The notes under the pieces: model-generated
Databases searched by the model: none
What the model was told of the DNA's origin: nothing
The model's input: the letters and a program-made list of their open reading frames with translations, nothing else
DNA from: Oscillospiraceae bacterium
GTDB lineage: Bacteria; Bacillota; Clostridia; Oscillospirales; Ruminococcaceae
Direction: 5' to 3'
DNA length: 64,000 nt
Assembly: GCA_017405465.1 (NCBI GenBank)
Contig: JAFRAJ010000016.1
Location: 62,001-126,000 of the forward strand
Part shown: positions 41,395 to 57,787 of the stretch, piece after piece
Position numbering within the stretch: the first letter of the stretch is position 1
How the letters are laid out: each line of letters begins with the position of its first letter
Position numbers and translations under genes: made by a program

Positions 41395-41790
41395 ATGGAA
41401 GTAAAGATAAACAGGGAGATCCGTCAGTATACGGAATCGATGTTTTTCGGACTGTCGCTCAGGCAGTTCTTTTTTTCTGTCATCGCGGTGGCTGTAGCGG
41501 TAACGCTGTATTTCATACTGCGTCCGCATTTCGGGACGGAGACTGTTTCATGGATGTGCATCCTTGGAGCGGCTCCGTTTGCCGCTCTCGGCTTCATCAC
41601 ATATCACGGGATGACTGCGGAGCAGTTCCTGTGGGCTTGGCTTAGGTCTGAGGTGCTGGAACCGGAAAGACTGCGCTGCGAGGTGTCAGATCTCTATTAC
41701 GAAGCAGTCAGGGACAGAATCAGGGAATACGAGAAGGAGAATTACAGAAGGCATGATGAGATCCATAAAGAATACGGTAAAGACCGATAA
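41395..41790 (+). CDS. PrgI-family (VirB3-like) conjugation protein
   Basis: A 131-residue protein with PrgI layout: EVKINREIRQYTESMFFGLS, two membrane helices (FFFSVIAVAVAVTLYFIL and WMCILGAAPFAALGFITYH), and a helical cytosolic tail. PrgI proteins are the Gram-positive counterpart of VirB3 and always precede the VirB4 ATPase, as here. Its end overlaps VirB4 by 38 bases. Confidence 0.88.
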   Translation: MEVKINREIRQYTESMFFGLSLRQFFFSVIAVAVAVTLYFILRPHFGTETVSWMCILGAAPFAALGFITYHGMTAEQFLWAWLRSEVLEPERLRCEVSDLYYEAVRDRIREYEKENYRRHDEIHKEYGKDR

Positions 41791-44092
41791 GGAGAAATAC
41801 AGAGTTCCCCGCAGAGCACAGGATGTCATACCCATAAACAGGATATGGGCAGACGGCATATTTCTGCTGGGGAACAAATACGCAAAGACGTGGCAGTTTA
41901 CGGATATCAATTATCTTGTAGCAAGCAGGGAGGATCAAGAGAGCATGTTCCTTACATATTCGGAACTGCTGAACGGACTGGATGCCGGAGCCACTACAAA
42001 GATCACCATCAATAACAGGCACATGAAGAGATCTGATTTCGAGGAATCTATCCTGATGCAGGAAAAGGGAGACGGCCTTGATGTGTACCGCAAAGAATAT
42101 AACGAAATGCTGCTTTCCAAAACGCTGGATGCGAACGGGATACTGCAGGAGAAATACATAACCGTTACTGTGCTCAAGAGGAACATCGAGGAAGCCCGTG
42201 CGTACTTTGCCAGGATAGAGGCAGATCTCACAGCCAGACTGTCGGCGCTGGGATCCAGATGCGTGCCGCTGAATGCTGTGCAGAAGCTGAGAGTGCTTCA
42301 TGACGCGTACAGACCGGGAGAAGAGAATTCGTATTTCTTTGACCTGAACGATTCCGCCAGAAAAGGACACAGCTTCCGGGATTACATATGCCCGGACAGT
42401 ATCGAGAAGCATTCCGATCACCTGAAACTGGGAGATAAGTATGTCCGTGTGCTCTACCTCAAAGACTATGCCAGCTACATTAAGGACAGTATGGTGGCGG
42501 AGTTGACGGAGCTCAGTCCGAATATGATGCTTTCCGTAGATATCCTGCCGGTACCCACAGACGAGGCAGTCAGGGAAGTAGAAAGCAGACTTCTCGGTGT
42601 TGAGACGAATATAGCGCAGTGGCAGAGACGCCAGAACAAAAACAACAACTTCAGCGCTGTCGTTCCCTATGACATGGAACTGCAGCGAAAGGAGGCAAAG
42701 GAGTTTCTGAATGATCTGACGACACGAGATCAGAAAATGATGATGTGTATCCTGACAGTGCAGGTAACTGCCGACACGAAGCAGGAACTGGATCAGATCA
42801 CGGATTCCGTACGCAATACCGGGGGAAAGCATACATGTCAGTTCTCCGTTCTGAAGTATCAGCAGTTCGACGGGCTCAATACGGTGCTTCCCATAGGAAC
42901 CAGAAGGATAGATGCGTTCCGCACGCTGACTACAGAGAGCCTTGCTGTGCTGATGCCGTTCAAGGTGCAGGAGATCATGGATAAAGGCGGCATATATTTC
43001 GGAGAGAATGCCATATCCCATAACCTGATCATCTGCAACAAGGAGAATCTGCTGAACCAGTCGGCGTTCCTACTGGGAGTTCCGGGATCCGGAAAGTCAT
43101 TTGCAGCAAAGGAACTGATCACAACTCTGATCCTCAACACCGATGACGACATCCTCATCTGTGATCCGGAAGCCGAGTACGCGCCGCTGGTGCAGGCGAT
43201 GGGAGATGTGGGAACGGTAGTGCGTATATCTGCGGACGGACATGACAGGCTGAATGCCATGTACATGGTGAACGGATACGGCGACAACAATCCTGTCGTA
43301 GTGAAATCTGAGTTCATCATGTCTCTGATAGAACGCATCGATGAGAAGGGTGTGGGACCGAAGCATAAGTCCATAATCGACAGATGCCTCAGGAAACTGT
43401 ACAGAGACGCAGACAGGAAAGGATATGTGCCGACGCTGACGTTACTCAGGCAGAGACTGATGGATCAGAACGAGCCGGAGGCGAAGGAACTGGCGCTGTC
43501 GCTGGAACTGTATACTACAGGTTCGCTGAACATTTTTGGGAGAGAGAGCAATGTGGATCTGGACAGGAGAGTGGTGGTCTTCGACATAAGGGATCTCGGT
43601 GAGAATCTGAAGCCGACAGGACTGCTGGTCATAACAGATACGATTCTCAACAGAGTCTCGCTCAACTGGAAGCATGGGAAGAGGACGCATGTTTTTATAG
43701 ATGAATTCCATGTTGTGTTCGAGAATGAGTATTCTGCACAGTTTTTCAACTCGGCATGGAGGCAGTTCAGGAAGCGCAACGCTTTCCCGACGGCTATAAC
43801 CCAGAACGTGGAGTATCTTCTGGATTCGGTACAGGCAAGGACCATGCTCTCGAACTCGGAATTCATAATCATGCTGAACCAGGCAGCATCCGACAGGGAA
43901 CAGCTAGCGAAGCTGCTGAACATCTCTAACGAGCAGCTTAGCTATATTACGAACGCTGAACCCGGGTGCGGACTGATCAAATACGGAGGATCGCTGGTGC
44001 CGTTCGTGAACAGGTTCCCGAAAGACACGAAACTGTATCAGCTGATGGATACCACTCCCGGTTCGGGAGCATTTGCGGGGCAGGCTGAATAA
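41753..44092 (+). CDS. VirB4-family conjugation ATPase
   Basis: A 779-residue VirB4/TraE-type ATPase that powers assembly of the conjugation channel. The N-terminal domain (to about 420) includes VIPINRIWADGIFLLGNKYA. The ATPase domain has Walker A GVPGSGKSFAAKE (about 442-454), DILICDPEAEYAPLV, Walker B HVFIDEFHVVFENE (about 644-657), then ITQNVEYLLDSVQARTMLSN and QEQL-type tail. It is complete and followed by the sortase gene. The region before it gives no separate promoter. Confidence 0.92.
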   Translation: MMRSIKNTVKTDKEKYRVPRRAQDVIPINRIWADGIFLLGNKYAKTWQFTDINYLVASREDQESMFLTYSELLNGLDAGATTKITINNRHMKRSDFEESILMQEKGDGLDVYRKEYNEMLLSKTLDANGILQEKYITVTVLKRNIEEARAYFARIEADLTARLSALGSRCVPLNAVQKLRVLHDAYRPGEENSYFFDLNDSARKGHSFRDYICPDSIEKHSDHLKLGDKYVRVLYLKDYASYIKDSMVAELTELSPNMMLSVDILPVPTDEAVREVESRLLGVETNIAQWQRRQNKNNNFSAVVPYDMELQRKEAKEFLNDLTTRDQKMMMCILTVQVTADTKQELDQITDSVRNTGGKHTCQFSVLKYQQFDGLNTVLPIGTRRIDAFRTLTTESLAVLMPFKVQEIMDKGGIYFGENAISHNLIICNKENLLNQSAFLLGVPGSGKSFAAKELITTLILNTDDDILICDPEAEYAPLVQAMGDVGTVVRISADGHDRLNAMYMVNGYGDNNPVVVKSEFIMSLIERIDEKGVGPKHKSIIDRCLRKLYRDADRKGYVPTLTLLRQRLMDQNEPEAKELALSLELYTTGSLNIFGRESNVDLDRRVVVFDIRDLGENLKPTGLLVITDTILNRVSLNWKHGKRTHVFIDEFHVVFENEYSAQFFNSAWRQFRKRNAFPTAITQNVEYLLDSVQARTMLSNSEFIIMLNQAASDREQLAKLLNISNEQLSYITNAEPGCGLIKYGGSLVPFVNRFPKDTKLYQLMDTTPGSGAFAGQAE

Positions 44093-44121
44093 GCCTGCCT
44101 TTTGTGGCGGAGGTGATGACA

Positions 44122-44868
44122 ATGAAGAAATATATAAAGATCATAGCGACACTAGTGCTTGCCGTGCTGCTGATGATATCGCTGTATGTGCTGGCATCAG
44201 AGATATGGGGCATGCGGCAGAACAAAAAGGCAATTGAAAAAATATATAAAACGATGGAAAGTGCTGACGATATGGAAGACATGACGGAAGCAGCAGACGT
44301 CTGGGCTGAGAGATACAGAGCGCTTGCAGAAGAGAACGGAGATTTCTTTGGGTGGATCCATATTGACGGTACGGATATCGATCTTCCGGTAATGTATTCT
44401 CCGGATGATCCTTCCTACTATCTCAAGCACAGCTTCTGGAAGAAATGGAGCGATTACGGAACGCCGTTTCTTGACGGAAACTGCGAGCCCGGAGTTAGTA
44501 ACAATTATGTGATCTACGGCCACAACATGAAGAACGGCACCATGTTCGCACAGCTGCATGAGTATGAATCGGAGGAGTTCTGGAAAGAACATCCGTATAT
44601 ACAGTTCGATACACTAACGGAACAGGGAACATATGAGATCTTTGCGGTATTTCATTTCGATATCGATAACGAGGACTACTTCTTTAATGCACATGTGAAT
44701 ATGAGCGAAATGGAAGTCCGGGAGTTTGTTGATGAAGCGTCAGCCAGGCAGCTTTACGATACCGGTATCGAGCCGGAGTTCGGAGATCAGTTTCTGACTC
44801 TGTGCACCTGTGATAAAACGTACAGAAACGGGCGGTTCTTCGTGATAGCGAGGAAGGTCGCATCATGA
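44122..44868 (+). CDS. Class B sortase
   Basis: A 248-residue membrane-anchored transpeptidase, starting at the ATG at 44122 with GGCGGAGG upstream. One N-terminal membrane helix (IATLVLAVLLMISLYVL) precedes the sortase beta-barrel. The catalytic His is in YGHNMKNGTMF, the Cys in TLCTCD and the Arg in RNGRFFV, in the class B pattern. Sortases cleave LPxTG-like signals and attach proteins to the wall. The only obvious substrate in the window is the VPQTG-ended adhesin at 20159. Its place inside the conjugation operon suggests it is made during transfer. Confidence 0.9.
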   Translation: MKKYIKIIATLVLAVLLMISLYVLASEIWGMRQNKKAIEKIYKTMESADDMEDMTEAADVWAERYRALAEENGDFFGWIHIDGTDIDLPVMYSPDDPSYYLKHSFWKKWSDYGTPFLDGNCEPGVSNNYVIYGHNMKNGTMFAQLHEYESEEFWKEHPYIQFDTLTEQGTYEIFAVFHFDIDNEDYFFNAHVNMSEMEVREFVDEASARQLYDTGIEPEFGDQFLTLCTCDKTYRNGRFFVIARKVAS

Positions 44869-46496
44869 AGGAGATAAAGACCAAAGAGACGGTCAGGGAC
44901 ATTCGTGTCCTTGACCGTCAGTCGCTCCTGAAGGGCAGTATCAGAGAAGGTTATGTCAGATCGAAAGAATATATGCGGAAGGCTTCTGAAAACGATAATG
45001 AGTCCGACAGGGAACAGCCGGATGAAACTGTGCGTTCTTATGGAGAAGAAGCGAGGGCTGCGGCTGGAAAGCTGCAGAGAAGAAGGAGAACGGTTGTTAC
45101 AGAAGAATACGCAGAAGAAAACAGCACGGAAGCTGCCGGTGAGGAAGCTGCAGCAGACAGCAGGATCAAAACACGCGGAAGACTCAGTAAAGGAAAAACA
45201 TATACTTCCCGGGGCGATTATAAAGAAAAAACTGCATCCAGAACCGCTGAAGGCAGGGGGATAAAGACAGTTGCTTCTGAAATTGAAAACACAGCTGAAA
45301 AGGCTGTTGCTGATCAGGTCTCAGCCCGGAGATCCACGTTAATGGTGAGAAATGCCGTAGAGTCCCTCAAAGAGACGGCGGAAACAGCCGGAGATACTAT
45401 CCTGAAAGGCGTCAGGTGGGTGATAAAGGAGGCGGAGGACTTGTATGCTGCGGTCATGGCCGGAGGCTGGGTCTCTGTGTCGGTCATAGCTGTTATCTGC
45501 ATCATCGGTCTGCTTGCGGCATCGCCGTTCGGGATATTCCTTGCAGGAGATGATACAGGCTCGGGAAAGACGTTGCAGACTGTGATACGCGAGATCAATG
45601 AAGAATTTCTGAACGAGATCAACAGCATAAAAGCCGGTATTGCGTACGATGATCTGAAGATCTCGGGAGGCATGTCGCCATGGTCTGATGTGCTTGCAAT
45701 ATATGCCGTGAAGACTGCGGCGGATACTGACGGCTCCATGGAAGTCGTCACGGTAACAGATGAGAAGGCACAGATTCTTGCGGATATCTTCCGGGATATG
45801 AACAGTATCTCGTATACTACCGAGACCTATGAAGAAGAGATCGTGATTGAACCGGAAGAGGAAGGCGGAGAAGAAAAAACTGAGACAGTGATTAGAACAA
45901 GATTACTTATCTCAGTAAGTCACAGATCAGCTGATGATATCAGCAGGGAATACGGTTTTTCTCAGGAACAGAATACATATCTTTACGAACTGCAGTTAGA
46001 ACGCTTCAGGTCACTGTGGAGCGGTCTCATCGGAGGATACTCTGCAGGGATGGGCATCATCCCTTCTGAAGCGACGTGGATAGGTCTGAACGGATTTGTC
46101 TGGCCGCTGCCGGTAAACGGAACCATTACATCAGGATACGGATACAGGAGGGATCCGTTCACGGGGGAGGAGAAATTCCATGGCGGGACCGATATTGCGG
46201 CTGCAGAGGGAACGCCTATCATTGCTGCAGACAGAGGGATCGTTACTATCGCGAATGGCTCCGATATATGGGGCGGCGGATATGGTTATTACGTAAAGAT
46301 CGATCATCTGAACGGATACGAGACGTTGTACGGGCACTGCTCTTATATCTGCGTCACAGAAGGACAGTCAGTCAGAAAAGGGGAAGTGATCGCGTATGTC
46401 GGATCGACCGGGAACAGCACCGGGAATCACCTGCACTTTGAGGTGTACCGATACGGAAGCAGGCAGGATCCTATGGGTATGTTCATGGCCGGATAG
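44865..46496 (+). CDS. ICE-encoded M23 peptidoglycan hydrolase (VirB1-like role)
   Basis: A 543-residue protein. A charged, disordered cytosolic region (about 1-195) leads to one membrane helix (about 202-226, VSVIAVICIIGLLAASPFGI), an extracellular spacer, and a C-terminal M23 domain (about 415-540). The zinc ligands are visible: His of FHGGTDIA, the YGHCSYI stretch and HLHFEVYR. Such enzymes open the wall for the conjugation channel. It overlaps the sortase by four bases and ends the conjugation operon. Confidence 0.88.
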   Translation: MKEIKTKETVRDIRVLDRQSLLKGSIREGYVRSKEYMRKASENDNESDREQPDETVRSYGEEARAAAGKLQRRRRTVVTEEYAEENSTEAAGEEAAADSRIKTRGRLSKGKTYTSRGDYKEKTASRTAEGRGIKTVASEIENTAEKAVADQVSARRSTLMVRNAVESLKETAETAGDTILKGVRWVIKEAEDLYAAVMAGGWVSVSVIAVICIIGLLAASPFGIFLAGDDTGSGKTLQTVIREINEEFLNEINSIKAGIAYDDLKISGGMSPWSDVLAIYAVKTAADTDGSMEVVTVTDEKAQILADIFRDMNSISYTTETYEEEIVIEPEEEGGEEKTETVIRTRLLISVSHRSADDISREYGFSQEQNTYLYELQLERFRSLWSGLIGGYSAGMGIIPSEATWIGLNGFVWPLPVNGTITSGYGYRRDPFTGEEKFHGGTDIAAAEGTPIIAADRGIVTIANGSDIWGGGYGYYVKIDHLNGYETLYGHCSYICVTEGQSVRKGEVIAYVGSTGNSTGNHLHFEVYRYGSRQDPMGMFMAG

Positions 46497-46661
46497 ATAC
46501 ATAAAGTGCCTTCTGATTGCACGAATAACGCTTTTCACTGCGCGAACGACATGATTTGCGACGTGAACGACAAAGACATAGCATTTTTAGTGTTCTATAA
46601 TTTAATTGGGAAAGTATACGCAACCAATATCCATATTATCTCTAGAAGAAAGGGGACAGAG
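46497..46661 (+). promoter_or_regulatory. Upstream region of the NYN gene with three short repeats
   Basis: Three similar sequences occur every 20 bases: TTGCACGAATAACG (46517-46530), CTGCGCGAACGAC (46538-46550) and TTGCGACGTGAACGAC (46556-46571). The second and third share GAACGAC. A TATAAT hexamer lies near 46601 but without a good -35. The repeats may be operator sites for a regulator. The frame through them is open but lacks a ribosome-binding site, so I do not count it as coding. Confidence 0.35.
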
Positions 46662-48056
46662 ATGGAAATACATGACATCTCAGACAGACCGGCATATGCA
46701 GATGCGGATCAGCTTTTACGGGTCAAGGAAGATACTTATTCGATCGTAGGCACTGTGGCATACATCATAGGCGTTCAGAGATACAGCATCGAGAACAGGG
46801 GAAACACGACGGAACTGGATGCATATGATCTTGCAGACAAGGACAAGAACGGGAGAATAATCCATTATCTGTGTCTGGCGCGTACTAGACTTGAGAGAAA
46901 TTTCCGAAACATCAAAATGGCTTTAAGAGGGACTGCAAGCATATACTCTGCAGACCCTGTGATCAAAGAATGTATAGACTCACTTCATAAAGACGGAATC
47001 GAAATATTTAGAAAAAACACAAAAGATGTAAATGAGTATTTGATTGAAGCGAACAAGCTTATATCTGATAGATTAAACAACTGCAAAAATCATTTGCCGG
47101 AATGGCTGAACTGGGATTATTTCCGCGACTTCGTTATAATGCCCAACGGTCTTACTGACCCTGTGGAAGAGGGAACACGCTTTCAGCAGAACATCAAGCT
47201 GTATCCGTATTCGACATACTGCAACTGGCCGGTATCGAGTCAGGGCAATATTCTCAGCAGTGACCGGAAGTTTATAAATCTTCTCTACTACTGGCACGAA
47301 GACAAGTTTGAGGACCAGAGTAAAGTCGCTGATGTCAGCGAACACACAAAAGACAGAATATATAAGTTCATAGGCAAAGCCATAAGCGTATGTGTCGTCG
47401 TAGACGCAGAGAATTCGGATCCTTACAGACTGTGCGCTACACTGCAGCAGCTGAATGATGAATATACCGGCAGGATCACGAAAGTCATCATTATAGATGA
47501 CGAACGCACTACCATAGCATGGAACATCTTTGAGAAGTATGTAGGTATTCCTGTGGAGCACAGAGTCATCTCAAGGGTGCTTGAACAGAAGAGCCTGGTG
47601 GATATGTCGGTTGCTATGGCGATAACGAAAGAGTTCTATGCAAACAATACGGACTCCTTCATGCTGGTGGCATCTGACTCTGATTATTGGGCAATGCTGG
47701 ATCAGCTCCCGGAAGCCAACTTCCTTATGATGGTAGAGCGCGAGAAGTGCAGTCCTGCCATGAAAGAGAATCTCGTCAATGCAGGCGTCTTCTACTGTTA
47801 TATTGACGACTTCTATAGCGGTGACAGCGAAGAACTGGAAAGGACGGTCGTCACTTCTGAGCTTCTCAAGACTATAGATGGGCTGAATATAGGCAATCTG
47901 GAGATAATTCTTGAAGGAGCGTGTGCCAGGAGCAGGGCACATATTACTGAGAACGAAAAGAAACGAATGTATCAGAGATTGAAGCAGAGCGTGAAGCTTG
48001 TAATCGAAGACGACGGAAGGATGAAGATACAGGCGTCATTCAGGGGAAATCTGTAA
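46662..48056 (+). CDS. NYN-domain (PIN-like) ribonuclease candidate
   Basis: A 464-residue protein. The N-terminal 240 residues are not recognised (RTRLERNFRNIKMALRG). From about residue 243 a NYN domain is visible: VVVDAENSDPYRL (Asp248, Asn251), KVIIIDDERTTIAW, KSLVDMSVAMAITKEF (Asp) and SFMLVASDSDYWAML (Asp339/Asp341), then CYIDDFYSG. NYN proteins are PIN-fold RNases. The start at 46662 has AGAAAGGGG upstream; the frame is open further upstream without a signal. It lies between ICE core and restriction genes, and an RNA-cutting defence role is possible but not shown. Confidence 0.75.
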   Translation: MEIHDISDRPAYADADQLLRVKEDTYSIVGTVAYIIGVQRYSIENRGNTTELDAYDLADKDKNGRIIHYLCLARTRLERNFRNIKMALRGTASIYSADPVIKECIDSLHKDGIEIFRKNTKDVNEYLIEANKLISDRLNNCKNHLPEWLNWDYFRDFVIMPNGLTDPVEEGTRFQQNIKLYPYSTYCNWPVSSQGNILSSDRKFINLLYYWHEDKFEDQSKVADVSEHTKDRIYKFIGKAISVCVVVDAENSDPYRLCATLQQLNDEYTGRITKVIIIDDERTTIAWNIFEKYVGIPVEHRVISRVLEQKSLVDMSVAMAITKEFYANNTDSFMLVASDSDYWAMLDQLPEANFLMMVEREKCSPAMKENLVNAGVFYCYIDDFYSGDSEELERTVVTSELLKTIDGLNIGNLEIILEGACARSRAHITENEKKRMYQRLKQSVKLVIEDDGRMKIQASFRGNL

Positions 48057-48218: not shown

Positions 48219-48251
48219 TAATATGAATAAATATATGTTGTGAGGTTGGTT

Positions 48252-49820
48252 ATGGCTGATCTTAAGAAGGAACAAGAAAGAGACGAGCTGCATCGAGCAA
48301 TATGGGCTATCGCTGATGACCTCCGTGGTTCAGTAGACGGATGGGACTTTAAGAGCTATGTGCTTGGAACAATGTTCTATCGATATATATCAGAAAACCT
48401 TGCCGGTTATATCAATCAAGGTGAATGGGATGCCGGAAATGCTGGTTTTGCCTATGAGCGGATGTCCGATACAGAAGCTGAGGAAGCAAGAGAAGGTCTG
48501 ATTGAAGAAAAAGGTTTTTTTATTCTGCCTTCAGAGCTTTTCTGTAACGTTAGGAAAAGAGCTCTACAGGATGAGAATTTGAATATGACCTTGGAGACGG
48601 TCTTCAATCATATTGAAGACTCCGCGAAAGGCAGTGTTTCAGAAAACAGTTTTGCTGGTCTGTTTGATGACTTTGATGTAAACAGCAATAAGCTAGGAGC
48701 GACTGTTTCAAAACGTAACGAGAAACTGGTCAAGCTACTTAACGGTGTAGGTGACATGAACCTTGGTGATGTAAAGGGACATGATATCGACGCATTCGGC
48801 GATGCTTATGAGTATCTGATGACCATGTATGCCTCCAATGCCGGAAAGTCCGGAGGCGAGTTCTTTACGCCTGCTGATGTTTCTGAACTCCTGACCAGAC
48901 TGGGGACAGTAGGCAAAACGGAAGTCAATAAGGTCTATGATCCTGCCTGTGGTTCTGGTTCTCTTCTTCTGAAGGCTGAAAAAGTCCTTGGCCGAGATGG
49001 AGTTCGTAACGGTTTCTTCGGGCAGGAAATCAATATCACGACATACAACCTTTGCCGCATCAATATGTTCCTGCATGATGTCGGCTTCGATCATTTTGAT
49101 ATCGCCTGCGAGGACACTTTGACAAGCCCGCAGCACTGGGATGACGAGCCTTTTGAACTGATCGTCTCAAATCCGCCTTACAGCATCAAGTGGGCCGGTG
49201 ATGAAAATCCGTTGCTGATCAACGACCCTCGTTTTTCGCCTGCCGGAGTGCTGGCTCCGAAGAGCAAGGCTGATCTGGCGTTCATCATGCACAGTCTCTC
49301 ATGGCTGGCTCCGAACGGGACAGCTGCAATCGTCTGCTTCCCTGGTATCATGTATCGTGGTGGCGCTGAACAGAAGATTCGTAAATATCTCGTTGATAAT
49401 AACTTTATCGACTGTGTGATCCAGCTTCCGAGCAACCTTTTCTTCGGAACGTCTATTGCTACCTGCATTATGGTGCTGAAGAAAGGTAAAGCCGACAGCA
49501 AGGTGCTGTTTATCGACGCTACGAACGAGTGCATCAAGGTCACGAACAACAATAAGCTGACACAGGCCAATATGGATCGTATCGTAGATACCTATGCAGG
49601 TCGCCTGGAAGAACCGCATTTCTCTCATCTGGCAAGCTATGATGAGATCACAGAGAGTGACTATAATCTCTCAGTGTCAACTTATGTAGAAGCAGCTGAT
49701 ACCAGAGAAATAATTGACATCAAAAAACTTAATGCTGAAATCGAAGAGATAGTCGCACGCGAGGATACATTAAGAAAAGAAATTGCCGCTATCATCGAAG
49801 AAATTGAGGTGGCAGAATGA
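48252..49820 (+). CDS. hsdM: Type I restriction-modification methyltransferase subunit HsdM
   Basis: A 522-residue N6-adenine methyltransferase that, with HsdS, protects host DNA and forms part of the restriction complex. The N-terminal helical domain (LHRAIWAIADDLRGSVDGWD, FKSYVLGTMFYRYISE) precedes the SAM site GEFFTPADVSELL with VYDPACGSGSLL (about residue 230) and the catalytic SNPPYSIKW motif (about 306). The C-terminus has a coiled coil that packs on HsdS. The ATG at 48252 is chosen (GTGAGG upstream) over a GTG at 48240. It overlaps hsdS by four bases. The family type looks like IC (EcoR124-like). Confidence 0.94.
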   Translation: MADLKKEQERDELHRAIWAIADDLRGSVDGWDFKSYVLGTMFYRYISENLAGYINQGEWDAGNAGFAYERMSDTEAEEAREGLIEEKGFFILPSELFCNVRKRALQDENLNMTLETVFNHIEDSAKGSVSENSFAGLFDDFDVNSNKLGATVSKRNEKLVKLLNGVGDMNLGDVKGHDIDAFGDAYEYLMTMYASNAGKSGGEFFTPADVSELLTRLGTVGKTEVNKVYDPACGSGSLLLKAEKVLGRDGVRNGFFGQEINITTYNLCRINMFLHDVGFDHFDIACEDTLTSPQHWDDEPFELIVSNPPYSIKWAGDENPLLINDPRFSPAGVLAPKSKADLAFIMHSLSWLAPNGTAAIVCFPGIMYRGGAEQKIRKYLVDNNFIDCVIQLPSNLFFGTSIATCIMVLKKGKADSKVLFIDATNECIKVTNNNKLTQANMDRIVDTYAGRLEEPHFSHLASYDEITESDYNLSVSTYVEAADTREIIDIKKLNAEIEEIVAREDTLRKEIAAIIEEIEVAE

Positions 49821-51652
49821 GCAGATTGGATGAGTTAATTGCCGAACTATGTCCCAATGGAGTTGAATATAAGACAATTGGCGAAATTGCAACTGATATC
49901 TTCAGAGGGTCTGGGATAAAACGAGATCAAATAACAGAGACAGGAACACCCTGTGTAAGGTACGGGGAAATATACACTACATATGGGGTGTGGTTTGAAA
50001 CTTGTGTTTCTCACACAGATGAATCAATAATCCAATCGCCTAAATATTTTGAGCATGGTGATATCCTTTTTGCTATTACAGGAGAAAGTGTAGAGGATAT
50101 TGCAAAGTCATGTGCTTATGGAGGATATGAACGATGCTTGGCGGGAGGCGATATCGTAGTCCTTAAACATAATCAAGATCCTAAATATCTCGCATATGCT
50201 CTAACAACAACTAACGCTCGGCTTCAAAAGTCTAAAGGGAAAGTAAAGAGTAAGGTGGTCCATTCTAGCGTTCCTGCGATTGAGGCTATTAAGATTCCTG
50301 TGCCTCCTATGGAGGTACAGTGTGAAATTGTCCGCATTTTGGACAATCTCACGGATCTTACAGCGGATCTTACAGCGGATCTTACAGCGGAGCTTACAGC
50401 TAGAAAAAAACAATATGAATATTACCGAAACGAATTACTGACATTTAACCATAACACTAAGGTTGTACCGCTTGAGAGCATAGCTGAAATCAGCACGGGA
50501 AGCAGTAATACAAATGAAGGATTGGAAGAAGGTTTATATCCTTTTTTTGTCCGTTCACAGGAACCACTTCGAAAAAACGAATACGAATATGATGAAACAG
50601 CTATCATTACCGCTGGTGATGGAGTTGGTGTTGGCAAGGTTTTCCATTATGTTGAGGGCAAATATGCACTTCATCAAAGAGCATACCGAATTCATATCAA
50701 TAGCCTGGACGTTTTGCCACGATACTATTTTCATTATATGAAATCCGCATTTTTACCTTACATACAAAAGACTATGTTTCAAGGATCAGTCGCTTCAATA
50801 CGGCGGCCTATGCTGAATGAATTTCCTGTTCCAGTTCCATCCATACAGGTCCAGGAACGATTAATCAATGTGTTAGATAATTTTGAAACTATCTGTTCTG
50901 ATCTGAATATCGGCCTTCCAGCAGAGATAGATGCTCGCCAAAAACAATATGAGTATTATAGAGATTTGCTATTGACGTTCGCAGAGACTGGATCGACAAT
51001 CTCTGACAGACAGACAGACAGACAGACTGAAATAGCGCTCCTTCAGTATGTGTTTGGTTATGCTCCTGTAAAAATTGGTGAGATAGCAACAATCGTTCGT
51101 GGTGGCAACTTTCAAAAGAAGGACTTTGTGGAGGCAGGTAAACCATGCATCCATTATGGTCAGATGTATACCCACTATGGCGTGTATGCAAGCAAGACAA
51201 TCACTTTTGTGTCCGATGAGGTGTTCAATTGTTCCAAGCAGGCACACACCGGAGACATTGTGATGGCAGTTACAAGTGAAAACGTTGATGATGTTTGCAA
51301 ATGCACAGCCTGGCTTGGTGAGGAGGACATCGCTGTTAGCGGCCATACAGCGATTGTTCGCCACACACAAAACGCCAAATACTTATCTTACTTTTTCCAT
51401 TCAGCTGCATTTTACGAGCAGAAGGTAAAACTGGCTCACGGGACAAAAGTTATTGAGATTACACCGAGCAAGTTAGCTGATGCTATGATCATGCTCCCAC
51501 CTTTGCAAGAACAGGAGAAGATTGTAAAAATACTGGATCGCTTCAATTCGCTTTGTAATGACATCTCAGAAGGGCTCCCTGTTGAGATAGAAGCACGTAG
51601 GCAGCAGTACGAGTACTATAGGGATAAATTGCTTTCTTTCAAGGAGGAGTAA
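49817..51652 (+). CDS. hsdS: Type I specificity subunit HsdS with three target-recognition modules
   Basis: HsdS chooses the DNA sequence that the enzyme recognises. It is normally 400-450 residues with two target-recognition domains (TRDs); this one has 611 residues and three: about 1-178, 205-370 and 415-575. Each is followed by a matching helix with QYEYYR (near 202, 381 and 597). TRD1 and TRD3 are similar in pattern (GTPCVRYGEIYTTYG, KPCIHYGQMYTHYG). The first linker consists of LTAD/LTAE units from 12-bp DNA repeats as in EcoR124. Between modules 2 and 3 lies a GACA tract (51005) at which one-unit changes would stop the protein at about 404 residues. It is intact in this sequence. Confidence 0.92.
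   Translation: MSRLDELIAELCPNGVEYKTIGEIATDIFRGSGIKRDQITETGTPCVRYGEIYTTYGVWFETCVSHTDESIIQSPKYFEHGDILFAITGESVEDIAKSCAYGGYERCLAGGDIVVLKHNQDPKYLAYALTTTNARLQKSKGKVKSKVVHSSVPAIEAIKIPVPPMEVQCEIVRILDNLTDLTADLTADLTAELTARKKQYEYYRNELLTFNHNTKVVPLESIAEISTGSSNTNEGLEEGLYPFFVRSQEPLRKNEYEYDETAIITAGDGVGVGKVFHYVEGKYALHQRAYRIHINSLDVLPRYYFHYMKSAFLPYIQKTMFQGSVASIRRPMLNEFPVPVPSIQVQERLINVLDNFETICSDLNIGLPAEIDARQKQYEYYRDLLLTFAETGSTISDRQTDRQTEIALLQYVFGYAPVKIGEIATIVRGGNFQKKDFVEAGKPCIHYGQMYTHYGVYASKTITFVSDEVFNCSKQAHTGDIVMAVTSENVDDVCKCTAWLGEEDIAVSGHTAIVRHTQNAKYLSYFFHSAAFYEQKVKLAHGTKVIEITPSKLADAMIMLPPLQEQEKIVKILDRFNSLCNDISEGLPVEIEARRQQYEYYRDKLLSFKEE
50353..50400 (+). repeat. Four 12-bp direct repeats in the hsdS linker
   Basis: GGATCTTACAGC occurs three times in a row, then once as GGAGCTTACAGC. 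Each unit encodes four residues (D/E-L-T-A). In EcoR124I/II, differing counts of comparable TAEL repeats change the spacer length of the target site. Changes here stay in frame. Confidence 0.9.
51005..51027 (+). repeat. GACA tetranucleotide tract in hsdS
   Basis: Five GACA units plus GAC (23 bases) encode DRQTDRQ and part of the following Thr. With four units the frame reads CTG AAA TAG; with six it reads GAC TGA. Both stop directly after the tract and remove the third recognition module. Confidence 0.95.
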
Positions 51653-51664
51653 TTGAGCAATAGC

Positions 51665-51674
51665 AAAAAAAAAA
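51665..51674 (+). repeat. A10 homopolymer at the start of the membrane-protein gene
   Basis: Ten As follow TTG-AGC-AAT-AGC, a start directly behind hsdS with AAGGAGG 6 bases upstream. With ten As the frame ends at TAA (51698-51700); with eleven it joins the frame of the gene at 51742. Confidence 0.9.
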
Positions 51675-51741
51675 GAAAAACAAACAGTCAAAGAAGATAA
51701 ACAAGACAGCTTCATCTTCTATAGATTCTGTTAAGGAAGGA

Positions 51742-52290
51742 ATGTCACCAGATTCTTTGCGAGAGGTGATTGTAGATTCACTTCTTTTATATGACCAAAG
51801 GAAGGTTGATCTAGCCAAACAAGCGGAAGAAATAGAAGCCCAGAAAAGGCAAAAACTAATAGGATATAAGGATTACTCGAATCGCAAATTAATTCCTCGA
51901 GCGTTTCTGACTTTTCTCAATCGAACATGGGTGTTGTTAAAAATCTTATTTATGCGTAAAGATAAGATCAGCGGAGAATATGTGACTACCAGTCTTATGT
52001 CAACAGCCGTGTCATCATTGTTTGGCTTAATTAAATGGATTCTGTGGATCATAGCAGCTGTACTGTTATTGAAGTATCCCTTGTCGTTTGTAATACCGAG
52101 CATACCCGCTATAAAGATGTCTCTTTATCTGGTCTATATCGGTATAGCTATACTTGCATTTGAATTTGCGCAGGTTTTCCGTATTGCAAGCATAGAGATA
52201 GAAAAGACGCAAGATCGCAACTACATTGTGGACATCTTTGCTGCCGTAACAGCGATAGTTTCCATTATTATTTCTCTTGTAATTAGATAA
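51742..52290 (+). CDS. Membrane protein inserted in the type I operon (possibly phase-variable start)
   Basis: A 182-residue protein with a charged N-terminal helix, then three or four membrane segments (SLFGLIKWILWIIAAVLLL, MSLYLVYIGIAILAFEFAQV, FAAVTAIVSIIISLVI). No family is recognised. The open frame continues upstream to 51664 without a start. The best start is a TTG at 51653 with AAGGAGG just before it, but it is joined only if the A10 tract gains one base (or loses two), giving MSNSKKKKKNKQSKKINK as N-terminus. As it stands, translation may begin weakly at 51742. Polymerase or ribosome slippage, phase variation or a sequencing error are alternatives. Confidence 0.7.
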   Translation: MSPDSLREVIVDSLLLYDQRKVDLAKQAEEIEAQKRQKLIGYKDYSNRKLIPRAFLTFLNRTWVLLKILFMRKDKISGEYVTTSLMSTAVSSLFGLIKWILWIIAAVLLLKYPLSFVIPSIPAIKMSLYLVYIGIAILAFEFAQVFRIASIEIEKTQDRNYIVDIFAAVTAIVSIIISLVIR

Positions 52291-55585: not shown

Positions 55586-56539
55586 ATGTTAAATGAAAGA
55601 GTCCTTTTGACGCTTAAATATCTTTGGGAAGAATCTACTGCAGATAATTATGTTACCTGCGTGGATATCATGCGATATCTGGAAGAACATGGCTTAAAGG
55701 CGCCTTCACGCACTACTGTCTATAAGGATATAAAGCAGCTGCAGATTCTGGGAATCGATATCGAACAGAAAAAAAGCACGCAGAATCATTACTGGATCGG
55801 AGACAGAGTGTTCTCAACAGCTGAGTTACAGTTGCTTATTGATGCCGTTCAAGCTGCACGGTTCATTTCCAGAAGCAATAGTAATGCGATTATAGATAAG
55901 CTGTCCGTCTTTGCTGAGCCTGGCAATCAGGAACTCCTTAACAGAAGACTTCTTGTCGAGACGCGTCCTAAGTCAACAAATGATAGAGTTTTCCTAAATG
56001 TTAATGAACTGCAGTATGCAATAGCGCACAAAAAGAAAGTCCAATTTTATTATGTCGATTATTCTTCAGCAAAGAAGAAGGTGTATCGTCACCAAGGACA
56101 GAGGTATTCTGTTTCTCCGTTTTCCATTCTTTGGAACGGAGATAACTACTATATGATCGGATGGTCAGATAATCGTGACATAGTCGCATGCTTTAGAGTC
56201 GACAGAATGGACAAGGTGTCGGCTGTGGACGAGAAGGCGCATTCAAAGCCGCGAGGCTATAAGGAATCAGATTACTATAGCCAGATCTTTTCCATGTATG
56301 ATGGCCCGGATTGCGAAGTTGTGCTTTTGTGCCAGAACGATATGATGAACACAATAATCGATCGTTTCGGGACTGGTGTTAACACAGAGATAGTGGACAG
56401 AAACACTTTCAAGGCTACTGTTACAGTGCATCTGAGCAATAATTTCTTCGGGTGGCTTTGCGCGTTGGCAGGCAAGATAAAGCTTATATCTCCACAGCCA
56501 GCGGTGGACCAGCTTCATGAATTAGTAGCGAAACTATAA
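55586..56539 (+). CDS. WYL-domain transcriptional regulator
   Basis: A 317-residue protein with an N-terminal helix-turn-helix (CVDIMRYLEEHGLKAPSRTT, VYKDIKQLQILGIDIE) and a central WYL domain: QFYYVDYSSAKKKVYRHQGQ, then YSVSPFSILWNGDNYYMIGW and FRVDRMDKV. WYL regulators sense ligands or nucleic-acid products and commonly control defence genes. The C-terminal WCX extension is present (to about 315). It follows hsdR by 20 bases and precedes the MrcB-like gene by 39, so it probably regulates this island. Confidence 0.88.
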   Translation: MLNERVLLTLKYLWEESTADNYVTCVDIMRYLEEHGLKAPSRTTVYKDIKQLQILGIDIEQKKSTQNHYWIGDRVFSTAELQLLIDAVQAARFISRSNSNAIIDKLSVFAEPGNQELLNRRLLVETRPKSTNDRVFLNVNELQYAIAHKKKVQFYYVDYSSAKKKVYRHQGQRYSVSPFSILWNGDNYYMIGWSDNRDIVACFRVDRMDKVSAVDEKAHSKPRGYKESDYYSQIFSMYDGPDCEVVLLCQNDMMNTIIDRFGTGVNTEIVDRNTFKATVTVHLSNNFFGWLCALAGKIKLISPQPAVDQLHELVAKL

Positions 56540-56578
56540 GAATAGACATCCAGCTAGTTTTTATAGAAGGAGACAGCT

Positions 56579-57787
56579 ATGAAAGAGTCTTTTCAGTATA
56601 TTCTCGATACATATCAGAGTTTGCCAGGACGGGTTGATTCAGGTACCAGAACATACAGAGAACTTGTGCACAATTTACCGGCAGAAATAAAAGCGTTGTT
56701 TCCGGATCGCGAAGATCTGATTGTTAAGGGATCTATGGGAAATGGCAACAGGGCAGAATATCCATGGATTTCGATACTTAACAGAAACGTAACTGTCACG
56801 ACCCAGAAAGGCCTGTATGTTGTGTTTCTGTTTAAGAAAGATATGTCGGGCTTCTATCTGACGCTGAACCAGGGGATCACTAATTTCGAGAACCTATATG
56901 GAAGAGAGAAGTACGCTAACGCTCAGAAAGTGTCAGATTACTTCCGGTCCGAAATAACGGATACCACTATTTCTAAGGATCCGATCTATCTGGGTACAAA
57001 GCGTGGTGATCTTGGCTATGGGTATGAGACTACAACAGTGCTTCAGACTTTCTATCCATCACACGGCTTTACGGATACAGTTTTAAGAAATGATCTTCTT
57101 GAGATGATGGATATCTATGATTCCATCGTGAAGCATTTTGATTCTGGCAGCTATGATACAGTGATCCAGAGAGTGCTGGCGCAGGAGATGGAGCAGATCA
57201 TCCCGGCGGAAGAAGCGGTTGAGATGATCAGAGAGATCGTTGATCCGGATAATGATCTCCCGTTTGGATTTAACCGACAACTTCAGCAGGTCGAACCTTA
57301 TGTGGATAGAGACAATAAGTATACAAGGATCACTAACCCCCAGGCAGGAAAGATAGATTACATAAAGAAAGCGATGAGAGATGCGCGTACGGGACTGCTC
57401 GGTGAGCAGATGGTAATACAGTACGAGCAGGAAAGACTATCTAGTCTTGGCTTGGAAGAGTATGCAGAAAAGGTCAGGTGGGTATCCAGCGAATCAGACA
57501 GCTATGGATATGACATACTTTCGTATACTGTACTTCCGGATGGTTCCGTAAAAGAACTGTACATTGAAGTTAAAGCAACCACATCTAAGGTTGACACAGT
57601 GTTTTATGTGAGCCGAAATGAAGTGGAAAAGTCCAATATTTATGCGGACAGATACTGTGTTTACAGAATTTATGACGCCAACTCGATGTCTCCGAAGTTC
57701 TATAAAGCTTTTGGAAGGATCGAAGACAACTTTATTTTGGATCCGATAACATATATGGCCAGATATAAGGGGCTAGATGCGGCATAG
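56579..57787 (+). CDS. MrcB-type (DUF3578) N-terminal and DUF3883 C-terminal domain protein
   Basis: A 402-residue protein. The first 180 residues (IKGSMGNGNRAEYPWISILN-like stretch, YVVFLFKKDMSGFYLTLNQG) match the DNA-binding MrcB/DUF3578 domain found in McrBC-type and other modification-dependent systems. The last 110 (LLGEQMVIQYEQERLSSLGL, YGYDILSYTV, KELYIEVKATTS) match DUF3883, a PD-(D/E)xK-related nuclease-like domain with candidate D, E-V-K residues. The combination suggests a small restriction-like endonuclease that may read modified DNA (inference). It is encoded with a type I system, WYL regulator and giant helicase. A terminator follows. Confidence 0.8.
   Translation: MKESFQYILDTYQSLPGRVDSGTRTYRELVHNLPAEIKALFPDREDLIVKGSMGNGNRAEYPWISILNRNVTVTTQKGLYVVFLFKKDMSGFYLTLNQGITNFENLYGREKYANAQKVSDYFRSEITDTTISKDPIYLGTKRGDLGYGYETTTVLQTFYPSHGFTDTVLRNDLLEMMDIYDSIVKHFDSGSYDTVIQRVLAQEMEQIIPAEEAVEMIREIVDPDNDLPFGFNRQLQQVEPYVDRDNKYTRITNPQAGKIDYIKKAMRDARTGLLGEQMVIQYEQERLSSLGLEEYAEKVRWVSSESDSYGYDILSYTVLPDGSVKELYIEVKATTSKVDTVFYVSRNEVEKSNIYADRYCVYRIYDANSMSPKFYKAFGRIEDNFILDPITYMARYKGLDAA

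Follow-up and report, generated by a model that had tools for sequence, protein, structure and literature searches.

A GACA repeat between the second and third recognition modules of a type IC-like hsdS gene as a putative switch between two-TRD and three-TRD specificity subunits

The hsdS gene of a restriction-modification operon from an Oscillospiraceae bacterium encodes three recognition modules (TRD1 to TRD3), and a GACA repeat lies between the second and the third. The operon is very probably type IC-like, with slippage of the repeat setting whether translation would stop after a complete two-TRD HsdS or run on into a third TRD. For the gene family as a whole, sequence comparison strongly supports a switch between two-TRD and three-TRD HsdS rather than an on/off switch, as an earlier sequence-only reading of this DNA had proposed. 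The tract varies in length among relatives, the three reading frames are about equally represented, out-of-frame copies of TRD3 keep an open reading frame under purifying selection, and the joint is built from different repeat units in different loci. The arrangement recurs in 105 stretches of a collection in which each species has one genome, and there it should toggle specificity, not activity; it is a natural system in which to test the pairing of TRDs in a three-TRD HsdS.

The hsdM-hsdS-hsdR operon

The window (the whole stretch of DNA that was analysed, 64,000 nucleotides) carries hsdM, hsdS, an ORF of 182 aa and hsdR on a shared forward strand (Table 1). The three hsd genes match the families expected of them and stand together, which identifies a type I restriction-modification system. 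It was classed as IC-like because its nearest relatives are EcoR124 subunits, by sequence for HsdS (PDB 7bst) and by PF12008 for HsdR, the two subunits compared; the EcoR124II HsdS was the top PDB match by sequence, but ranked eighth by fold (Foldseek). A profile search of the window's contig returned no Methylase_S match on that contig beyond this hsdS. Inverting hsdS loci of the pneumococcal SpnIII type have silent hsdS copies, inverted repeats and a recombinase. The operon order is kept among the 105 related stretches described below: where the stretch leaves room, hsdM is upstream in 38 of 40 loci and hsdR downstream in 84 of 85. The 182-aa ORF is kept beside hsdS in just 1 of 85.

Table 1. 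Features of the hsd operon and of the hsdS gene, in window coordinates
Feature	Position	Strand	Basis
hsdM, methyltransferase subunit, 526 aa	48240..49820	+	PF02384 5.7e-114, PF12161 9e-19; TIGR00497 hsdM 729 bits, cut-off 243
hsdS, three-TRD specificity subunit, 611 aa in the state found	49817..51652	+	PF01420, three stretches, 3.1e-43; best PDB relative EcoR124II HsdS, 7.5e-31
First recognition module, TRD1 and conserved region 1	49853..50398	+	PF01420 match G000:C38:111853-112398, shift 62000
12-bp in-frame repeat, 4.1 copies, coding LTADLTADLTAELTA, conserved region 1	50352..50400	+	repeat search; translation
Second recognition module, TRD2	50453..50929	+	PF01420 match G000:C38:112453-112929
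Conserved region 2, C-terminal-type	on to ~50980, after TRD2	+	alignment
(GACA)5.75 slippage tract (putative), 23 nt, perfect period 4	51005..51027, between modules 2 and 3	+	repeat search
TGA ending the 405-aa two-TRD form (+1 unit)	51028..51030	+	frame computation
TAG ending the 404-aa two-TRD form (-1 unit)	51033..51035	+	frame computation
QYVFG linker motif, opens third module	51044..51058	+	pattern search; alignment
Third recognition module, TRD3	51062..51595	+	PF01420 match G000:C38:113062-113595, best of three
Conserved region 3	to stop at 51652	+	alignment
ORF between hsdS and hsdR, 182 aa	at 51742	+	ORF list
hsdR, type IC-like (EcoR124_C domain), 1086 aa	52305..55565	+	PF12008, PF22679, PF18766, PF04313; TIGR00348 over cut-off

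Several neighbouring features were recorded. A run of ten A at 51665-51674, just past the hsdS stop, is possibly a second slippage site: an eleventh A would place the TTG at 51653 in the frame of the 182-aa ORF. An NYN-domain protein (46506-48056; Pfam 7.1e-06) directly precedes hsdM. Further upstream, ORFs at 41753-46496 look from their translations, judged by eye, like a VirB4-like ATPase, a sortase and an M23-type peptidase, which suggests an integrative conjugative element. Past hsdR, at 55586-57787, lie a WYL-domain protein and an MrcB_N/NOV_C protein, perhaps a regulator and a second restriction-like gene; relatives of these two were absent from the 105 stretches, each of which spans at most 8 kb.

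Architecture of the HsdS protein

PF01420 matched three times along the single HsdS chain. TRD2 and TRD3 of the window are unlike in sequence and have different best relatives. Fourteen fused proteins were aligned, namely the window's and 13 from the tract-plus-linker scan described below; QYVFG is invariant among them, the 13 having been found through this motif. A TAEL-type region follows TRD1 in most of the 14, while a region of the C-terminal type (GLPAEIEARQKQYEYYR or a near variant) follows TRD2 and also TRD3. In an AlphaFold model (mean pLDDT 76, pTM 0.59, residues 228-288 below 50, TRD2 poorly predicted), one long helix (165-208) follows TRD1, broken helices follow TRD2 (343-391) and TRD3 (563-605), and short helices precede TRD1 (3-11) and TRD3 (402-413). 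Judged by the types of the conserved regions and this helix pattern, the short, two-TRD form looks complete and is expected to be a normal HsdS, composed of an N-terminal segment, TRD1, a TAEL-type region, TRD2 and a C-terminal-type region. The third module, with its predicted N-terminal-like helix, TRD and C-terminal-type region, resembles a half-HsdS that has been appended. The ten best Foldseek matches of the model were S subunits at rmsd 10.8-33.0, a match too flexible to tell how the TRDs pair; ranks 11-13 were Esub1 chains of 184-196 residues, at rmsd 3.0-3.1.

The 12-bp repeat in conserved region 1 presumably corresponds to the TAEL repeats of type IC HsdS proteins. In EcoR124 and EcoDXXI, the number of TAEL repeats sets the spacer length of the target site, and by analogy a change in copy number here should change the target-site spacer. 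The longest run of LTAE-like units, counted with a crude regular expression in 68 loci, was 0 in 28, 1 in 10, 2 in 20 and 3 in 10. A single hsdS gene may thus carry two tunable repeats, the 12-bp repeat and the GACA tract.

TRD types were found at all three positions. Pairs of segments from different positions with at least 60% identity over at least 130 aa numbered 48 (positions 1 and 2), 88 (1 and 3) and 109 (2 and 3), the segments including adjoining conserved regions and the pairs not being independent. Domain movement among HsdS TRDs is already published (extract of PMC3077401).

The GACA tract and its effect on the reading frame

The sequence-only reading had held that the GACA units keep the third module in frame, and this was borne out: with 5.75 units, the ORF at 49817-51652 encodes 611 aa and has three Methylase_S (PF01420) stretches in frame. 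It was also right that removal of one unit would bring in a TAG, and addition of one a TGA, soon after the tract. Frame computation gave 404 aa and 405 aa, respectively, and the PF01420 positions leave each product with the two recognition modules that had been foreseen. Removal or addition of three units restores the long frame (607 and 615 aa). As the tract reads DRQT in every frame, no stop arises within it. The gene therefore has what characterises phase-variable hsdS genes, a frame-changing repeat inside the ORF.

The possibility that GACA runs are general sequence noise was considered and rejected, since the runs are concentrated at the joint and the matches in the genome of origin fall only in the tract. 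Within the window, three or more GACA in a row occur at 51005-51024 and nowhere else, and none of 100 shuffled versions of the window contained the tract-plus-linker pattern. In the genome of origin (2.05 Mb, about 80% complete), GACAGACAGACAGAC matched three times, all overlapping within this tract, and the reversed control pattern matched twice, the count that the same periodic tract would give. Across the 105 related stretches (784,908 bases), 104 runs of at least three GACA were at the joint and 5 elsewhere; three of these 5 are in L084 and L100, where N separates them from the joint, and the other two (L063, L086) are no more than 4 nt away from the joint tract.

Recurrence in other genomes

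A whole-protein search of 297 genomes of the same family found the same module order in other genera. In one genome the tract has 13.75 units and is in frame, with 631 open codons; in two others (30 and 17.5 units) it is out of frame, and in a fourth the joint is composed of 11 units of GAGCA, in frame (G244, G024, G287 and G171, in that order). QYVFG stood shortly past the repeat in 7 of the 7 third modules seen in this family search, the window's included. A related hsdS (in G126) has a polyC/G tract of 10 between two modules (L008:2047-2056), with 220 and 191 open codons in different frames, an arrangement reminiscent of NgoAV.

The tract followed by QYVFG codons was found in 105 stretches of the GTDB species collection, which holds one genome per species. 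Judged by eye from the names in the collection, the carriers are mostly Lachnospiraceae, Ruminococcaceae and other Clostridia, among them Blautia caecimuris, Gemmiger formicilis, Lacrimispora amygdalina and Peptostreptococcus anaerobius; going by names, many come from gut or rumen. A few are metagenome bins named as other phyla, the names being taken at face value.

The QYVFG codons alone were also searched for, in 294 genomes from the family (31 matches) and 394 from the order (39 matches, some of them shared with the first set). Eleven of these matches are recognisable HsdS third modules, each with a repeat at the joint; a broken third module could have escaped notice, because sequence was given only for matches with an HsdS motif downstream. 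The repeat was GACA in nine, GAGCA in one and (GA)10, out of frame, in one. Seven of these 11 loci were already among the 105, and four, the window's included, are independent of that set. The presence of frame-changing units of different kinds at one joint argues that switching itself is selected.

The same arrangement occurs in Fusobacterium vincentii (a 2.1 Mb record in the plasmid collection), with 35 units of an AGCA-type repeat, out of frame, a QYVYG linker and a third module that is, by eye, of the window's TRD3 type. F. vincentii was also the one record returned by a search of plasmid proteins with the linker peptide (E 0.02). With 48240-52290 as the query, a distant DNA search of plasmids returned 998 records with identities of 60-80%, none of which reached 80% coverage; the one plasmid record examined, AP027478, has a single hsdS of 1,227 bp. 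Window positions 50900-51700 had no match among phages in a distant DNA search. Six IMG/VR stretches carry the tract and linker pattern; L210 and L208 are identical to L041 and L136, respectively, over the aligned flanks.

Frame states and tract lengths

The frame could be scored in 63 of the 105 loci, those readable on both sides of the tract; 40 are cut at or just before it and two (L084, L100) have runs of N. TRD3 is fused in 17 of the 63 and out of frame in 46, with 22 and 24 in the two other frames (chi-square against thirds 1.24, 2 df). With L064, here scored as out of frame, counted as fused, the figure is 18 of 63 (two-sided p 0.50). The split is near the thirds that free tetranucleotide slippage predicts. 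The 40 cut loci (36 at true contig ends, 29 of them inside the tract, and 4 at edges of sequence stretches) could bias these frame counts. Several contigs of the L036-L140 set end in the GACA tract at about 54 nt, which looks like an assembler k-mer limit. Because breaks in the tract are frequent in assemblies, annotation is likely to miss or split the third module, and gene catalogues may often lack it.

Unit number ranges from 2.75 to 35.5, and against the median of 13 over 64 loci, the window's included, the 5.75 units found here make a short tract. Cultured carriers of long tracts include Blautia caecimuris DSM 29492 (15.75 units) and Faecalibacterium sp. An121 (17.5 units). In 34 of 45 out-of-frame loci (L064 is left out of this count and of the start-site counts below), 360 or more open codons precede the tract, with short frames of 372-499 aa measured from the upstream stop. 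The two-TRD part is interrupted in three out-of-frame loci: in L041 and L088 just 93 and 87 codons, respectively, are open ahead of the tract, and L075 has TRD1 and TRD2 in different frames. L115 has N in this part. All four were retained in the frame counts.

Closely related alleles, drawn from different species or assemblies and not from one culture, differ in unit number. L083 (4.5 units, fused) and L101 (8.75, out of frame) are 92% identical upstream and 91% downstream; L104 (25.5, out of frame) and L119 (12.0, fused) are 93% identical downstream. In two pairs both members are out of frame: L055 and L111 (98.3% downstream; 14.5 and 35.5 units), and L046 and L110 (96% upstream, 99% over 572 bases downstream; 9.75 and 15.75 units). 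L209 and L085, 98-99% identical in two pieces, have 15.25 and 18.25 units. Between species or assemblies, the family therefore varies in unit number and has both frame states among related copies, as phase-variable genes do. The sequence-only reading had named an invariant tract across strains and cultures, with no change in methylation motif, as grounds for refuting it; in this comparison of species and assemblies, the tract varies.

Selection on the third module

From QYVFG onwards, TRD3 has 178-208 open codons in its own frame in every one of the 41 out-of-frame loci that show it in full; in 5 further ones the edge of the stretch cuts TRD3. In 16 pairs of more than 84% identity, the dN/dS of TRD3 was 0-0.23. 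The five pairs in which both members are out of frame, three of which share members, gave 0, 0.21, 0.22, 0.17 and 0.10, and in four of these five the differences at codon positions 1, 2 and 3 numbered 26, 9 and 75. A module that was never translated would not combine an open frame, low dN/dS and a third-position excess. These observations show, at the level of sequence, that TRD3 has often been translated over evolutionary time; dN/dS reflects the whole of the past, not the present state.

Alternative explanations

It is unlikely that the repeat is only a flexible linker and that the three-TRD form is effectively fixed in this strain. A tract of 5.75 units may slip rarely, and DRQT, encoded in all frames, is a plausible unstructured linker between the helices at 371-391 and 402-413. 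However, a linker leaves unexplained the 46 of 63 loci that are out of frame with stops just past the tract, and the repeat units of this joint, which measure 2, 4 or 5 bp and each change the frame. An out-of-frame TRD3 might instead be made separately as a half-HsdS by re-initiation, in which case the switch would be between fused and split forms. Short-form stops do lie 10-23 nt before QYVFG, GTG or TTG occurs in the scanned stretch of many loci, and half-HsdS subunits function in other systems (extracts of PMC9577141 and PMC6158711). The start codons themselves make re-initiation quite unlikely: one with a Shine-Dalgarno-like sequence occurred in the scanned stretch of 1 of 45 out-of-frame loci, that stretch lacked any ATG in 32 of the 45, and GTG is the V codon of QYVFG in just 43 of 106. 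A start site of its own for TRD3 was set aside, as the start-codon scan gave it little support.

The repeat could also act on restriction and not on specificity, if an early stop left about 620 nt of hsdS untranslated upstream of hsdR and lowered HsdR by polarity. The downstream position of hsdR in 84 of 85 loci, and the distance of about 620 nt between short-form and long-form stops, would be in keeping with this. Polarity leaves the purifying selection on TRD3 unexplained, as well as the diversity of TRD3 and its sharing between positions, and it is very unlikely to be the role of the repeat. Finally, the idea that TRD3 is a decaying leftover of a duplicated hsdS beside an incidental repeat is scarcely credible, for although most scored copies are out of frame, none of the 41 fully visible ones has a shortened TRD3 and dN/dS is low.

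Proposed mechanism

In the two-TRD/three-TRD switch, strand slippage would alter the number of units, and one frame in three would give the long HsdS. In the short state, translation would stop after a complete two-TRD HsdS; in the long state, a half-HsdS would be attached through a disordered DRQT linker. This half-S could then compete for a partner, either TRD1 or TRD2 of its own chain (in cis) or the TRD3 of another chain (in trans), and the enzyme would gain or exchange a recognition sequence. A population would hold two methylomes and two restriction specificities. Both the three-TRD combinations of JHP1422 (below) and the half-HsdS proteins reported to work, an engineered half-S (extract of PMC6158711) and that of NgoAV (extract of PMC9577141), bear on what the long form would recognise. 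By analogy with them, the long form most likely adds specificity, through TRD3 dimers or TRD3 paired with TRD1 or TRD2, rather than losing activity.

It is about as likely as not that the locus stands for a distinct, widespread class of epigenetic switch, in which a complete HsdS and a half-HsdS meet at a slippage joint and alternative TRD pairing yields one or several recognition sequences. Such a class would be found mainly in Clostridia and would reach the Fusobacteriota, selection would re-create its joint from different units, and its TRD cassettes would move among the three positions. Phase-variable methylation is known mostly from pathogens.

Comparison with known systems

EcoR124I and EcoDXXI resemble the window's system in that the nearest PDB HsdS by sequence (7bst), the EcoR124_C domain of HsdR and the TAEL-like repeats of region 1 all point to them. 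Their HsdS proteins have two TRDs and are not known to contain a slippage tract.

Simple sequence repeats occur in 7.9% of the hsdS genes in REBASE (Atack et al. 2020, FASEB J 34:1038, as quoted in extracts of PMC7394358 and PMC9577141), and a 2025 paper cites the same survey for three-TRD HsdS (extract of PMC12429846). The sequence-only reading had called the arrangement an unfamiliar one. This holds for the combination, a slippage switch between two and three TRDs, which was not found in the literature searched; it does not hold for the parts, since a three-TRD HsdS with two specificities (JHP1422; extract of PMC3936762) and a slippage switch of HsdS specificity (NgoAV; extract of PMC9577141) are both published. 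The combination would be new unless the survey of Atack et al. already describes one, and there is real doubt about priority.

In NgoAV of Neisseria gonorrhoeae, a polyG tract at the 3' end of hsdS1 toggles between a truncated HsdS of 208 aa and a fused HsdS (extract of PMC9577141); the system is listed among those of type IC (extract of PMC10030836). As at the GACA joint, a repeat within hsdS slips, and the short and long NgoAV proteins are described as differing in specificity and not simply as on or off (extract of PMC9577141). In contrast to NgoAV, the repeat here follows a complete two-TRD HsdS and adds a third module; the tract lies past TRD2 and its conserved region, and the short form is thus not a one-TRD half-S.

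JHP1422/JHP1423 (Hpy99XV) of Helicobacter pylori shares with the window's gene the presence of three TRDs in a single HsdS chain. That protein works, methylating one palindromic and one non-palindromic site; its TRD3 works alone, presumably as a dimer; and its natural variants differ in composition and length (extract of PMC3936762). TRD2 and TRD3 are identical in JHP1422, whereas the three TRDs of the window's protein are all different and a repeat forms the joint; the extract of PMC3936762 mentions no slippage tract at the JHP1422 joint. In the type IIG enzymes JHP1272 and HP1353-HP1354 of H. pylori, a frameshift in a homopolymer appends a recognition domain at the C-terminus, and the sequence recognised is thereby altered (extract of PMC3936762). 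The GACA joint would follow the same logic, but in a type I HsdS.
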